Virus record (IMG/VR): IMGVR_UViG_3300032224_000032
Location: 1 to 38,262 of that record
Direction: 5' to 3' (one strand)
Length of the DNA stretch: 38,262 nucleotides
Source of the DNA: a virus
This document shows positions 170 through 9,120 of this stretch, piece by piece. How positions within the stretch are numbered: position 1 is the stretch's first letter; each line of letters starts with the position of its first letter. The translations under genes and the position numbers were made by a program. The notes under the pieces are model-generated. The model was not told the origin of the DNA. It worked only from the letters and a program-made list of their open reading frames with translations, and ran no database searches.

Positions 170-189
170 TACTGTATGCTTATACAGTA
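170..189. promoter_or_regulatory. LexA/SOS-box-like operator TACTGTATGCTTATACAGTA
   Basis: This is a 20-base element with perfect 8+8 dyad symmetry: TACTGTAT, GCTT, ATACAGTA. It contains CTGT-N8-ACAG, the core of the LexA operator of gamma- and betaproteobacteria, and differs from the E. coli ideal only in the four central bases. It lies 42 bases before the small-terminase start and just downstream of a TATAAT box, so a bound repressor would block transcription into the packaging genes. The gene at 1149-1373 encodes a LexA-type DNA-binding domain, making host LexA and this phage protein both candidate ligands. Binding is inferred. Confidence 0.7.
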
Positions 190-230
190 GTTGTGATAAT
201 ATGGCCTAATTCCTATTCCGTACCCAATTA

Positions 231-1088
231 ATGAAGATACCCAAACTAACTAAAGCGCAGATAAATGAGGCGCTAAAGAATACGCCAATCCATGAGGTGC
301 TGAACGTATCTAAACGCGCGCTAACCCCCAAACAGATTAAGTACTGTGAGAATGTAGCTAAGGGAGAATCACAAGCAGGAAGCTACCGTAAGGCATACAA
401 CAGCAAGGGAAAGCCAAGCGTTCAGGCTAATGAGGGATACAAGCTAGCCAAACGCCCTGATATTGCCGTGATGATAGAGGCTACGAGAAAGGCTATTGAG
501 TGGGAGAAATCTCATACACTCTCTCAAACAAGGGCGCTGGTGGTGGAAAGACTGACTAAAGAGGCTTTAGATGATGATTCAAGCCCCTCTGCTCGTATCA
601 ATGCGCTTAAGGCACTCGGCACAGTTGCGGGCGTAGATGCTTTCGTACACCGTACTGAAACCAAAGTGATCAAGGATAGCACCAAGATCAGAGCCGATCT
701 AATGGCACAGATAAAAGAAGCCATGCAAGCTAATACGATAGATGTAAGCGATGATCTAGAGGCTATCGAGTTGCTAGCGGAGATCAGCGGGCTTCCAAGG
801 CCAGCCCCGTTCGAGGACGGCACGGGCGCAACCCCACCGGCCCCCGCCCCCACCTTGGCTGCAAAAGATGGCGAGGTATTACTACATACTATTCCAGACG
901 CTCAGTCCCCATCCAAATCCGTTTCCGCCAAAAACGCCCCAATAGAATCAACGAGTTACACGCATGTGGAAACGTTACCACATAGAAATGACTCGGAAGA
1001 GGGGGGTGGGGGTACAAAAAACCACCCAGATTGGCAAGAAGTTCCTACAGGGAACACCCCCCCTTCTGTTTCTAAAACAAAGGGGTAG
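231..1088 (+). CDS. Terminase small subunit
   Basis: DNA-recognition subunit of the packaging motor. Residues about 28-90 follow the usual small-terminase N-terminal pattern: LTPKQ, a short helix, then GSYRKAY and a KLAKRPDIAVMIE segment, expected to form the helix-turn-helix that binds viral DNA and delivers it to the large subunit. Residues 95-190 are helical and probably oligomerise. Residues 190-285 are low-complexity (Pro, Ala, Ser, Gly-rich) and probably disordered. At 285 residues it is longer than many small terminases because of this tail. No Shine-Dalgarno motif precedes the ATG, but no better in-frame start exists. The large subunit lies downstream, separated only by the LexA-like gene. 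Expression is probably controlled by the SOS-like box upstream. Confidence 0.82.
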   Translation: MKIPKLTKAQINEALKNTPIHEVLNVSKRALTPKQIKYCENVAKGESQAGSYRKAYNSKGKPSVQANEGYKLAKRPDIAVMIEATRKAIEWEKSHTLSQTRALVVERLTKEALDDDSSPSARINALKALGTVAGVDAFVHRTETKVIKDSTKIRADLMAQIKEAMQANTIDVSDDLEAIELLAEISGLPRPAPFEDGTGATPPAPAPTLAAKDGEVLLHTIPDAQSPSKSVSAKNAPIESTSYTHVETLPHRNDSEEGGGGTKNHPDWQEVPTGNTPPSVSKTKG

Positions 1089-1148: not shown

Positions 1149-1373
1149 ATGACTGAGAAGCAAGCCTACATATATGACATTATTAATAAGCATTGGAAGA
1201 TGCATGGGTTTGGTCCGTCTATAGATTACATTATGGAAATAACGGGCGATAGAGGTAGAGGTAATGTACATCGTACTATGAAGAAGTTAGTAGAACTTGG
1301 ATACTGTAAGATGCTGCCCCGCCATGCTCGGAGTATTCGGCCTTCGTATATTAGGGTGCATAAACTAGAGTGA
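1149..1373 (+). CDS. Stand-alone LexA-type winged-helix DNA-binding protein
   Basis: This 74-residue protein covers only the LexA N-terminal domain. The pattern TEKQAYIYDII, then HGFGPSIDYIMEITG, then VHRTMKKLVELGY and ARSIRP follows the three-helix winged fold of LexA (compare LTARQ..VFDLI, G.PPT..EIA, LKALA..G, SRGIR). It stops where LexA would continue into its Ala-Gly cleavage site and Ser/Lys autoprotease domain, so it cannot self-cleave. Recognition-helix residues (GRGNVHRTMKKL) differ from those of E. coli LexA, so operator specificity may differ. It lies between the two terminase genes; its stop overlaps the next start (GTGA). Candidate targets are the dyads at 170-189 and 1120-1137. 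The repressor or activator role is inferred. Confidence 0.7.
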   Translation: MTEKQAYIYDIINKHWKMHGFGPSIDYIMEITGDRGRGNVHRTMKKLVELGYCKMLPRHARSIRPSYIRVHKLE

Positions 1374-2854
1374 AATTAGAAAAACTAATCGAAAGCCTTC
1401 CAGAAGAAGAACAAGATGTTTTGTTTGCTATGGCTCAGGAATACAAAGACTCCCTAAAGCGGGAAAAGTCCCAGAATGATTTTATGGCTTTTGTCCACCA
1501 AATGTGGCCCGGCTTTATTAACGGTGCGCACCATAAGGTTATGGCGCAGAAATTTCAGGATATAGCAGATGGAAAACTTCGTCGTCTTATTATTAATATG
1601 CCTCCTCGCCATACTAAGTCTGAGTTTGCTAGTTACATGCTTCCTGCGTGGTTTTTGGGAAAGTTCCCTGATAAGAAGATTATCCAGTGTTCCAATACTG
1701 CGGAACTGGCTGTTGGCTTTGGAAGAAAAGTACGGAACTTGGTAGGATCCTCTCAGTACCACGAGGTATTTCCAGAAGTAAATTTAAAATCAGATTCTAA
1801 AGCTGCGGGCCGGTGGGACACAAATAAGGGGGGTACTTACTTCGCTATCGGTGTTGGGGGTACCGTTACTGGTAAAGGTGCGGATCTCTTGATTATTGAT
1901 GATCCCCACTCGGAGCAAGAAGCCGCGATTGCCGCGACTAACCCAGAGGTTTACGATAAGGTCTTTGAGTGGTATTCCTCTGGCCCAAGACAACGACTTC
2001 AGCCGGGCGGAGCGATTGTGGTCGTTATGACCCGCTGGAGCCTAAAAGATTTAACTGGAAGAATTTTAAAATCGGCCTTCGAGCGGGATGGCGATGAGTG
2101 GGAAGTAATTAGTTTCCCAGCGATTCTGCCTAGCGAAAGACCATTATGGCCTGCATTCTGGCCCCTAAACGAATTACTCGCTTTAAAAGAAGAACTTCCC
2201 GTTTCTAAATGGAACGCTCAGTATCAACAAAGTCCTACCTCAGAAGAGGGCGCCCTAGTTAAAAGAGATTGGTGGCAGAAGTGGGAAACCGATACCCCAC
2301 CTAAGTGTGAGTTTATTATCCAATCTTGGGATACAGCCTTTACTAAGAATGAACGTTCGGACTATTCTGCCTGTACGACATGGGGAGTTTTTTATCTTAA
2401 TGAAGATGAGATGCAACCCAATATTATTCTTTTGGATGCAATGAAAGAAAGGCTAGAGTTCCCAGAACTTAAAGAACGCGCTTTTAAGATGTACAAAGAA
2501 TGGGAACCAGATGCCTTCATCGTAGAAGCAAAAGCTTCAGGAACACCGCTTATATTTGAGCTAAGGCGTATGGGTATACCCGTAACAGAGTTTACACCTA
2601 CCCGTGGTAATGATAAGATAGCAAGGCTGAATTCCGTAACAGATTTATTTGCGTCTGGCAAGGTGTGGGCGCCCGGCAAAAGGTGGGCTGATGAAGTAAT
2701 CGAAGAAATGGCTTCTTTTCCAAACTCGGATCACGATGACTTAGTGGACTCCTCCACACAAGCTTTGATCCGTTTTAGAAAAGGCGGCTTTATTCGGCTA
2801 CCATCAGACGAAGTAGATGAACCAATTTATAGACGCAAAACCGCGTATTACTAG
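1370..2854 (+). CDS. Terminase large subunit (ATPase and nuclease)
   Basis: Motor that pumps DNA into the prohead and cuts the concatemer. The ATPase half carries a variant Walker A (PPRHTKSE, residues 78-85), Walker B with catalytic acid (LLIIDDPH, 173-180) and a coupling motif (MTRW, 220-223). The C-terminal RNase H-like nuclease shows its acidic residues at SWDTAF (319-324), VEAK (385-388) and DHDDLVD (454-460). The 494-residue length is normal. The start is GTG at 1370, overlapping the stop of the preceding gene by four bases, which suggests translational coupling; there is no better ATG before residue 21. It acts at the portal vertex (gene at 2863) with the small subunit (gene at 231). 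All key catalytic positions appear intact. Confidence 0.95.
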   Translation: MKLEKLIESLPEEEQDVLFAMAQEYKDSLKREKSQNDFMAFVHQMWPGFINGAHHKVMAQKFQDIADGKLRRLIINMPPRHTKSEFASYMLPAWFLGKFPDKKIIQCSNTAELAVGFGRKVRNLVGSSQYHEVFPEVNLKSDSKAAGRWDTNKGGTYFAIGVGGTVTGKGADLLIIDDPHSEQEAAIAATNPEVYDKVFEWYSSGPRQRLQPGGAIVVVMTRWSLKDLTGRILKSAFERDGDEWEVISFPAILPSERPLWPAFWPLNELLALKEELPVSKWNAQYQQSPTSEEGALVKRDWWQKWETDTPPKCEFIIQSWDTAFTKNERSDYSACTTWGVFYLNEDEMQPNIILLDAMKERLEFPELKERAFKMYKEWEPDAFIVEAKASGTPLIFELRRMGIPVTEFTPTRGNDKIARLNSVTDLFASGKVWAPGKRWADEVIEEMASFPNSDHDDLVDSSTQALIRFRKGGFIRLPSDEVDEPIYRRKTAYY

Positions 2855-2862
2855 GAAAAACT

Positions 2863-5349
2863 ATGGCAATTGAAAAAGCACTATACCAACTACCCGAAGG
2901 CATGGATTCTTCACAGGAACCCGCCCTTGATATTGAAATTGAAGATCCAGAATCAGTAACTATTGGTATAGACGGGTTAGAGATTACCCTAGAACCAGAA
3001 GAGGAAAGCGATCAAGACTTTGGCGCTAACCTAGCTGAGTACATGAGCGAAAGCGCTTTGACTGAAATTGCTGGAGATTTAATTGGCGATTTTGATTCTG
3101 ATATAGCCTCCCGCAGAGATTGGATTCAGGCTTACGTAGATGGCTTAGAACTTTTAGGAATGAAGATTGAAGACCGTATGGAACCGTGGCCCGGCGCCTG
3201 TGGCGTTTATCACCCACTGCTTTCCGAAGCCGTCGTGAAGTTCCAATCAGAAACCATTATGGAAACGTTTCCAGCCTCTGGTCCTGTAAAAACTCAGATT
3301 ATCGGCAAAGAAACTCCTGAAAAGAAAGCTGCCGCTGAACGTGTTCAAGCGGACATGAACTACCAGTTAACCGATGTAATGCAAGAATATCGCCCTGAGC
3401 AAGAGCGTTTACTCTGGGGCTTGGGCATTGCAGGTAACGCATTTAAGAAAATTTATTACGATCCAAGCCTTCAACGTCAGGTAGCTATGTATGTTCCTGC
3501 CGAAGATATGGTTGTTCCTTATGGCGCTTCTAGCCTTGAATCAGCAGAGCGTGTTACCCACGTTATGCGCAAAAGCGAAAATGAACTACGCAAACTGCAG
3601 GTTGCAGGATTCTATAGAGATATAGACTTAGGAGAACCAGAAAACGTATTAGATGAAGTAGAAAAGAAAATTGCCGAGAAACTTGGCTTTAGAGCTACCT
3701 CAGATGACAGATTTAAAGTTTTAGAAATGCACGTTGACCTAGACATTGAAGGTTACGAGCATGAAGATGAAGATGGAGAACCTACGGGAATTGCTTTACC
3801 TTATGTTGTAACCATTGAAAAAGGTAGCAATTCAGTTTTGGCAATTAGGAGAAATTGGAATCCAGATGATGAAACTCATAAGAAACGTCAGCACTTTGTT
3901 CACTACGGCTATATTCCCGGTTTTGGCTTCTATTGTTTTGGTCTTATTCATCTTATCGGGGCTTTTGCTAAGTCAGGCACTAGTATCCTCCGCCAGCTTG
4001 TTGATGCAGGGTCACTTTCAAACTTGCCGGGTGGCTTTAAGACCCGTGGCTTGCGTGTTAAAGGAGACGACACACCGATAGCGCCCGGAGAATTCCGTGA
4101 CGTTGATGTACCAAGCGGCACAATGAAAGACAACATTATGACCCTGCCGTACAAGGAACCGTCAATGGTTCTGGCTGGGTTGTTAGATAAGATCGTAGAT
4201 GAAGGCCGTAGATTTGCCTCAGCCGCAGATTTAAAAGTTGCAGATATGTCAGGGAATACCCCGGTAGGGACAACCCTTGCTATTCTGGAAAGAACTTTAA
4301 AAGTTATGTCTGCCGTACAAGCCCGCATTCATTATTCAATGAAACGCGAGTTTAAGTTACTAAAAACTATTATTGCGGATTACACCCCTGAAGAGTATTC
4401 ATATGACCCAGCAGAAGGTGACCGCAAGGCTAAGAAATCAGATTATGACGATGTAGAAGTTATTCCAGTATCCGATCCTAATGCGGCTACGATGAGCCAG
4501 AAGATTATGCAGTATCAAGCTGCTCTTCAGTTAGCTCAATCAGCGCCACAACTCTACAATATGCCTTTGTTGCATCGCCAGATGTTAGATGTTTTAGGAA
4601 TCAAGGACGCTTCTAAGTTAGTCCCCCTACCGGACGATCAAAAGCCACGCGATCCAATTACGGAAAATATGGATAACCTTAAGGGTAAACCATTAAAGGC
4701 TTTCCTATATCAAGACCACGATGCGCATATTGCAGTTCACCTAGCGCTAATGCAGGATCCAAAAATCATGCAAACGATTGGTCAAAACCCACAAGCGCAA
4801 ATGATTATGGGTTCTTTAATGTCCCACATTCAAGAGCATTTGGGTTATGCATATCGCAGACAAATGGAAGAAATGATTGGCGTTCCAATTCCTTATAGCG
4901 AAGAAGAGGACTATGAATTACCAGAAGAAGTAGAACTTCAGATTGCTAGATTAGCCGCGCCCGCAGCACAGAAGTTATTGCAAATTGATAAGACGGCTGT
5001 TGCAGCGCAACAAGCACAGCAAGCAGCGCAAGATCCATTGATTCAAATTCAACAGGCGGAATTGCAAATCAAGGCTCAAGAAGCTCAAACCAAGCAAATG
5101 AAAGCACAGTCTGATGCGCAGGCTAAGGCCCAACAAATGGCTATTGAGCAAGAAAGAATCGCATCACAAGAACGTATAGCGGGAATGCAAATAAACGCTA
5201 AAGTACAAAAAGACAATGCAGATCTACAAATTCAACGCGAAATTGAAGCTGCAAGATTGATGTCTAAGTCAACAACGGAAGCAAACAAACTTGGAGTGGA
5301 TATTGCCAAGCACAACCAAATGATGTCCAAACAAACGAATAGAGGTTAA
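2863..5349 (+). CDS. Portal protein
   Basis: Dodecameric ring at the head vertex through which DNA enters and leaves. It is placed directly after the large terminase. The protein has 828 residues: an acidic N-terminus (1-60), then a segment with EPWPGACGVYHPLLSEA near residue 107, typical of portal proteins of podovirus-like phages. The central wing/stem region is followed by a long Gln/Ala/Lys-rich coiled-coil tail (about 690-815), expected to form the barrel or crown inside the head. The length is at the large end for portals, as in other short-tailed phages with a barrel. The call rests on position, length and family resemblance; portals have no catalytic motif to confirm it. The following small gene starts two bases after the stop. 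Confidence 0.88.
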   Translation: MAIEKALYQLPEGMDSSQEPALDIEIEDPESVTIGIDGLEITLEPEEESDQDFGANLAEYMSESALTEIAGDLIGDFDSDIASRRDWIQAYVDGLELLGMKIEDRMEPWPGACGVYHPLLSEAVVKFQSETIMETFPASGPVKTQIIGKETPEKKAAAERVQADMNYQLTDVMQEYRPEQERLLWGLGIAGNAFKKIYYDPSLQRQVAMYVPAEDMVVPYGASSLESAERVTHVMRKSENELRKLQVAGFYRDIDLGEPENVLDEVEKKIAEKLGFRATSDDRFKVLEMHVDLDIEGYEHEDEDGEPTGIALPYVVTIEKGSNSVLAIRRNWNPDDETHKKRQHFVHYGYIPGFGFYCFGLIHLIGAFAKSGTSILRQLVDAGSLSNLPGGFKTRGLRVKGDDTPIAPGEFRDVDVPSGTMKDNIMTLPYKEPSMVLAGLLDKIVDEGRRFASAADLKVADMSGNTPVGTTLAILERTLKVMSAVQARIHYSMKREFKLLKTIIADYTPEEYSYDPAEGDRKAKKSDYDDVEVIPVSDPNAATMSQKIMQYQAALQLAQSAPQLYNMPLLHRQMLDVLGIKDASKLVPLPDDQKPRDPITENMDNLKGKPLKAFLYQDHDAHIAVHLALMQDPKIMQTIGQNPQAQMIMGSLMSHIQEHLGYAYRRQMEEMIGVPIPYSEEEDYELPEEVELQIARLAAPAAQKLLQIDKTAVAAQQAQQAAQDPLIQIQQAELQIKAQEAQTKQMKAQSDAQAKAQQMAIEQERIASQERIAGMQINAKVQKDNADLQIQREIEAARLMSKSTTEANKLGVDIAKHNQMMSKQTNRG

Positions 5350-9044: not shown

Positions 9045-9120
9045 AAACCGGGAAAACCGGCTTATCAAACTGTCCCGGCAGACAGCATATTGATTGATAA
9101 GCTGATCTTATATGCAAGGA
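9045..9120 (+). promoter_or_regulatory. Structured mRNA leader with alternative pairings
   Basis: GCTTATCAA (9060-9068) pairs perfectly with TTGATAAGC (9094-9102). Inside it CTGTC (9070-9074) pairs with GACAG (9081-9085). The inner loop CCGG can pair with CCGG upstream (9048-9051 or 9057-9060), giving a possible pseudoknot. The 3' arm can alternatively pair downstream: ATAAG (9097-9101) with CTTAT (9107-9111), which would break the outer stem. The ribosome site AAGGA (9116-9120) follows. Such mutually exclusive stems before a start codon suggest cis-acting translational control. No known riboswitch class is recognised. Confidence 0.45.

Follow-up and report, generated by a model that had tools for sequence, protein, structure and literature searches.

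A LexA-type operator and a LexA-like protein gene at the predicted promoter of the terminase genes in an uncultured phage

LexA at the promoters of phages and satellites

The closest described counterpart of the locus presented here is P3, the late promoter of the Bacillus tectivirus GIL01, on which host LexA and the truncated LexA homologue gp6 act at separate sites (PMC6182141). In that phage the LexA boxes are of the Bacillus type, and gp6 is an early-gene activator that binds a palindromic site at −43.5 (PMC6182141). A second precedent is the operon I of SaPIbov1, which contains a small terminase gene and which, as stated in PMC11442139 (citing Ubeda 2007), is under LexA control. A third piece of information concerns the DNA-binding specificity of LexA itself, since the alphaproteobacterial protein reads a direct repeat, GTTC-N7-GTTC (PMC8565304).

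The window, that is, the whole stretch of DNA analysed (38,262 nt, IMG/VR record IMGVR_UViG_3300032224_000032), resembles GIL01 P3 in that a predicted late promoter carries a LexA-box operator together with a different, presumed site for a phage-encoded LexA homologue reduced to its DNA-binding domain. Like gp6, this 74-residue protein is a truncated LexA homologue with a candidate motif in the late promoter. In contrast to GIL01, the protein belongs to the alphaproteobacterial type and is encoded between terS and terL, inside the operon that it would regulate; the site presumed for it, a direct repeat, spans the transcription start and does not overlap the −35 region as in gp6-like activation, and the likely sign of the protein's action is a block. 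With SaPIbov1 the phage would share a LexA box before an operon holding a small terminase gene, and with it a tie between packaging and the SOS response (PMC11442139). SaPIbov1, however, is a Staphylococcus satellite with a Gram-positive LexA box, and the passages of PMC11442139 that treat operon I describe no phage LexA-like gene for it. This precedent, as reported there, also corrects the initial annotation of the window, which had regarded LexA boxes as unusual ahead of packaging genes. The logic proposed below therefore appears to be known in kind, from GIL01 P3 and the SaPI packaging operon, while the LexA class, the position of the gene and the place of the second site differ. No description of this promoter/operator arrangement was found in a search of the open-access literature.

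A LexA-type palindrome ahead of terS

The arms of TACTGTATGCTTATACAGTA are fully symmetric (8+8), and the ATG of terS lies 41 bp further on. The initial annotation had taken this element for a LexA/SOS box standing before the terminase genes, a reading that held at the exact position: on an E. coli LexA matrix the site scores 23.0 bits, compared with 14.1 bits for the second-best site of the window and with a range of 13.3–23.6 bits for E. coli SOS boxes themselves. In random 38-kb sequences the best site averaged 12.2 bits on the same matrix, with a maximum of 18.3 (60 trials). The matrix combines 20 SOS boxes of E. coli from the literature, and the recA and lexA boxes among them were verified in MG1655 DNA. 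Differences between TACTGTATGCTTATACAGTA and the E. coli recA box are confined to the centre. When TACTGTATNNNNATACAGTA was searched with up to three mismatches, 170-189 was the sole match in the 38 kb; this loose pattern averages 0.3 matches in shuffles, so that a loose match is by itself not significant, and the exact 20-mer TACTGTATGCTTATACAGTA, also with up to three mismatches, gave no match in shuffles. An exact CTGT-N8-ACAG at position 9070 was rejected as a LexA site, as it scores 7.5 bits and is intragenic.

Table 1. Coordinates of the features discussed (window positions unless a relative is named)
Feature	Position	Strand	Details
LexA-type palindromic operator (predicted)	170-189	.	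TACTGTATGCTTATACAGTA; about −39 to −20 relative to the predicted start
Extended −10 (predicted)	194-202	+	TGATAATAT; hexamer TAATAT at 197-202; start predicted near 209
Direct repeat, predicted operator of the phage protein	209-225	+	ATTCCT-N5-GTACCC, 11-bp period; about +1 to +17
terS, terminase small subunit	231-1088	+	285 aa; PF03592, phrog_51
Standalone LexA-type winged-helix DNA-binding protein	1149-1373	+	74 aa, no peptidase domain; PF01726, E 1.5e-5
terL, terminase large subunit	1370-2854	+	494 aa; phrog_38 (E 1e-111), PF17289
Portal-like gene	2863-5349	+	ORF list, PHROG/Pfam matches
Same-strand gene run (terS, DNA-binding gene, terL, portal, structural genes)	231-38262	+	ORF list, PHROG matches
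Early-region LexA-like boxes in relatives	L083:622-641, L082:479-498, L084:6149-6168, L086:7368-7387, L087:9392-9411, L088:6575-6594

The leader was compared across 95 non-redundant relatives, of which 26 form the clade holding the window. The dyad is kept ahead of terS in every member of this clade (26/26, 18–25 bits), and in most of them a TGnTAnnnT extended −10 follows exactly 6 nt after the CTGT-N8-ACAG core, from which this gap was measured. In many members a second box stands at a distance of 17–19 bp, or of 32 bp in two of them. All 10 members of the sister clade, E, have weaker boxes in tandem, spaced by exactly 18 bp. Outside these two clades the palindrome is found in none of the 13 outgroups and in 1 of the 39 remaining relatives. 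A scan of whole related genomes allowing two mismatches was not stringent enough to serve on its own. In the window the core likewise ends 6 nt short of the conserved extended −10, overlapping the predicted promoter. Considering its match to the beta/gammaproteobacterial type of SOS box (on the E. coli matrix), its position at the promoter and its conservation, 170-189 is, as judged from sequence, a LexA-type operator.

Several relatives also present a LexA-like box (15–23 bits) in the early region, between a RusA-like gene and an early ParB-like gene (Table 1). This box scores about 15 bits in the clade of the window and 21–23 bits in clade C, in which the terS box is mostly missing. It often lies beside TTTACCCTAAT repeats and, in the clade of the window, also beside the palindrome TGGTAACGTTACCA. 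The stretch 3' of the early box (L082:26-202, L083:912-1100, L084:5689-5928) hardly differs from one relative to another and is found again in clade C. It is not part of the main genes, reads GGSRRNSAYIGGEASTDSTSGWR in one frame, and could be a conserved RNA or a terminator. Finally, an identical 16-base CTGTATGTTTATACAG occurs in two related phages (L082:6875-6894 and G024:40134-40149). In L082 it scores 21.6 bits and falls just inside the start of a gene for a small, secreted-looking protein, and it may be either a coding coincidence or an operator.

The predicted promoter and its transcription unit

The promoter at 194-202 was called because the extended −10 is conserved, and not from a generic sigma-70 scan, which did not flag it and found no strong −35 hexamer. 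The terL gene starts with a GTG that shares bases with the stop codon of the DNA-binding gene, in the sequence GTGA, and all recognisable genes of the linear 38-kb record lie on the + strand, the later ones including virion-structure families. In L002, the closest longer relative, the genes upstream run in the opposite direction, and the promoter therefore heads a rightward transcription unit. Because the same-strand run that it heads fills the window, this is probably the main late promoter, serving packaging and probably particle building, although internal promoters are possible. The suggestion in the initial annotation that the box ties DNA packaging to host DNA damage is thus retained in part: the box does precede terS, but its predicted reach extends well beyond packaging, to the whole + strand run.

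Other features of the region can be mentioned here. The predicted terS leader (203-231) comprises about 22 nt and lacks a clear Shine-Dalgarno sequence, which may mean that the mRNA is almost leaderless. Most of the palindrome clade conserves a stretch upstream of the box (80-130; L002:4700-4760) that includes TAAAAGCCCGC and, further on, TAGGGA. It contains no evident gene and may represent a packaging site or a small RNA. Searches of the window for RNA families and tRNAs found none.

A phage-encoded LexA-type DNA-binding domain

The second gene of the unit encodes a LexA-type winged-helix protein. Its relatives match the LexA DNA-binding domain (PF01726) individually in 46 of 56 cases, and a profile of these 56 sequences matches LexA sequences in the PDB. 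The AlphaFold model of the 74-residue protein has a pLDDT of 91, and its best PDB matches are the LexA-DNA complexes 3jso and 3jsp (TM about 0.8, rmsd 1.2). The reading frame ends immediately after this domain, leaving out the C-terminal S24 peptidase responsible for RecA-stimulated self-cleavage, and no S24 peptidase (PF00717) was matched in 19 related phage contigs. A copy of the gene precedes terL in 79 of the 80 relatives with terL, the remaining contig beginning within terL.

The recognition helix was aligned with those of LexA from Sinorhizobium, Sphingomonas, Methylobacterium and E. coli. In the phages it reads S/G-K/R-S/G/A-N-V/I-H-R, compared with S-K-S-G-I/V-H-R in the alphaproteobacterial proteins and S-P-N-A-A-E-E in that of E. 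coli, whose residues S39, N41, E44 and E45 are missing from the phage helix. This alignment groups the recognition helix with the alphaproteobacterial ones, of which the window's own version (G-R-G-N-V-H-R) shares V-H-R only. The likeness to alphaproteobacterial LexA extends to the winged helix with its S-K-S-x-I/V-H-R motif and RLPNRAR wing, and to a predicted direct-repeat operator with an 11-bp period; the phage protein differs in having no dimerisation/peptidase domain, in its modest identity (about 36%) and in a second half-site that is often RTAC. A lone DNA-binding domain devoid of a dimerisation domain may bind weakly.

At a threshold of E 0.01, the window's protein found no match among 50,697 phage records. 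With a clade-B relative as the query, weak matches to standalone LexA-like phage genes were obtained. F116 gp12, Cosmo gp13 and a protein of Synechococcus phage Ssp-JY39 likewise consist of a short LexA-type DNA-binding domain, annotated as an ORF lacking the peptidase, but the similarity is weak (28–38%), the gene neighbourhoods are different and, in the regions viewed, none stands before terL.

A direct repeat over the transcription start

Downstream of the −10 element, most relatives share a repeat with the consensus RTTCCY-N5-RTWCCY, in which the half-site RTWCCY recurs with a period of 11 bp. It lies just after the −10 in most clades. The window's copy, read as ATTC-N7-GTAC, differs by one base in each half from GTTC-N7-GTTC. 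Such a cognate repeat near the promoter is what the alphaproteobacterial class would possess, and of 49 non-redundant relatives, 33 had [AG]TTC-N7-[AG]T[AT]C in the interval from promoter to terS, compared with 1.3 in shuffles. The perfect GTTC-N7-GTTC is present in 8/49 (0.07 expected). A matrix trained on these same regions recognised the repeat in 74 of the 95 relatives (about 5 expected); a recognisable repeat is missing in about one-fifth of them, mostly in one clade. In four clade-A-like genomes of 61–67 kb, the exact extended form of the repeat occurs once per genome, at terS.

Which protein reads which motif

The idea considered first was that the phage protein itself binds the palindrome, host LexA being uninvolved, so that 170-189 would be a purely autoregulatory site that merely resembles an SOS box. 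The protein has the LexA fold, its gene belongs to the same operon, all relatives that have the palindrome also possess a gene of this type, and the sites before the early ParB-like gene would then provide a small phage regulon. This idea was ranked lower once seven relatives (L114, L115, L120, L125, L132, L136 and L137) were found to carry the window's helix, GRGNVHRTMKKL, and to have kept the direct repeat, the palindrome being missing. Conversely, the helix varies within the palindrome clade (GRGNVHR, SKGNIHR, SKSNVHR, GRGHTHR) while the palindrome remains E. coli-like, and where the helix is GRGHTHR the first half-site becomes ATAC. Since the repeat persists where the palindrome is lost, and the palindrome stays constant where the helix changes, the comparison argues that the half-site goes with the phage protein and that the palindrome does not. 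The missing E. coli residues of the helix also speak against this first idea, which we now regard as improbable. The protein at 1149-1373, which the initial annotation had named as a possible binder of the palindrome, does have a LexA-type domain (PF01726 and fold), but the alphaproteobacterial type of the helix makes 209-225 its likely target.

Two further comparisons bear on the pairing of protein and repeat. The second half-site is GTTC in all nine relatives whose protein has a lysine at the key position, but also in 3 of the 50 others. When the co-change of helix and half-site was placed on the terL tree, it amounted to 2–3 independent events only, too few to decide.

A different assignment would follow if the host were an alphaproteobacterium, because the direct repeat would then be the true SOS box, read by host LexA, and the palindrome would be read by an unrelated regulator of host or phage. 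In line with this, L012, L013, L016, L018, L019, L022, L023, L025 and L127 contain the perfect GTTC-N7-GTTC, and one distant terL relative infects Pelagibacter. Nevertheless, the second half-site in the clade of the window is RTAC, off the host consensus, and the palindrome equals the best E. coli LexA sites in score and is kept in every member of the clade, which makes an alphaproteobacterial host an unlikely explanation of the locus.

Proposed mechanism

The observations could be integrated in a model, to which we assign a probability of roughly 0.55, in which the palindrome is the target of host LexA, the direct repeat is that of the phage protein acting as an autorepressor, and both proteins act on the promoter heading the late unit. 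The palindrome covers the −35 region and the spacer. Its most likely ligand would be a beta/gammaproteobacterial-type LexA of the host, and this would hold the promoter closed until infection or DNA damage sets off the SOS response. The direct repeat covers the transcription start and would most likely be bound by the 74-residue protein; as this is the product of the second gene of the unit it would regulate, its binding could throttle its own operon by feedback. Because it has no peptidase, RecA could not inactivate it.

A more specific version of this model is offered tentatively, with slightly less than even odds: that two LexA specificity classes meet at this promoter, with host LexA using an E. 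coli-type box, and a non-cleavable phage domain of the alphaproteobacterial type using an orthogonal direct repeat. Late genes would then need host SOS induction and would subsequently be limited by a repressor that RecA cannot remove.

The sign of the phage protein's action could also be the opposite one, that is, the activation of the late promoter in the manner of GIL01 gp6. In favour of this, the closest studied analogue is an activator (PMC6182141), and no strong −35 hexamer was found here. Yet gp6 binds upstream of the start, whereas the repeat lies in a blocking position, and we consider activation doubtful in comparison with autorepression. Packaging sites are often found in or beside terS. 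A reading of 209-225 as the small-terminase recognition site (pac/cos) or as a leader-RNA element could draw on this and on the position of the repeat, which in many relatives is close to where terS begins (−15 to −40), but it is not likely, since alphaproteobacterial LexA boxes have the same kind of half-site and the same 11-bp period, the neighbouring gene encodes the matching helix type, and the motif is still recognisable across loci whose TerS identity drops to about 30%.

Host, lifestyle and biological meaning

A search for the host through provirus contigs returned two MAG contigs only, both resembling binned phage DNA. Neither a tyrosine integrase nor a LexA/CI-type peptidase was found in 19 related contigs, and these phages may therefore be strictly lytic, a lifestyle for which one would less expect late genes to be under SOS control; most known examples of late genes timed by DNA damage come so far from temperate phages and satellites. 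The system is small, consisting of one 74-residue protein and about 60 bp of DNA, and is directly testable in vitro. If the proposed model is true, the locus would show that in nature two LexA specificity classes can serve one promoter side by side with no cross-talk, and uncultured aquatic phages, possibly lytic ones, would time their late genes by the DNA-damage response of the host. The two motifs at the promoter suggest that this family of uncultured bacterial viruses couples the expression of its late genes to the DNA-damage signalling of the host.
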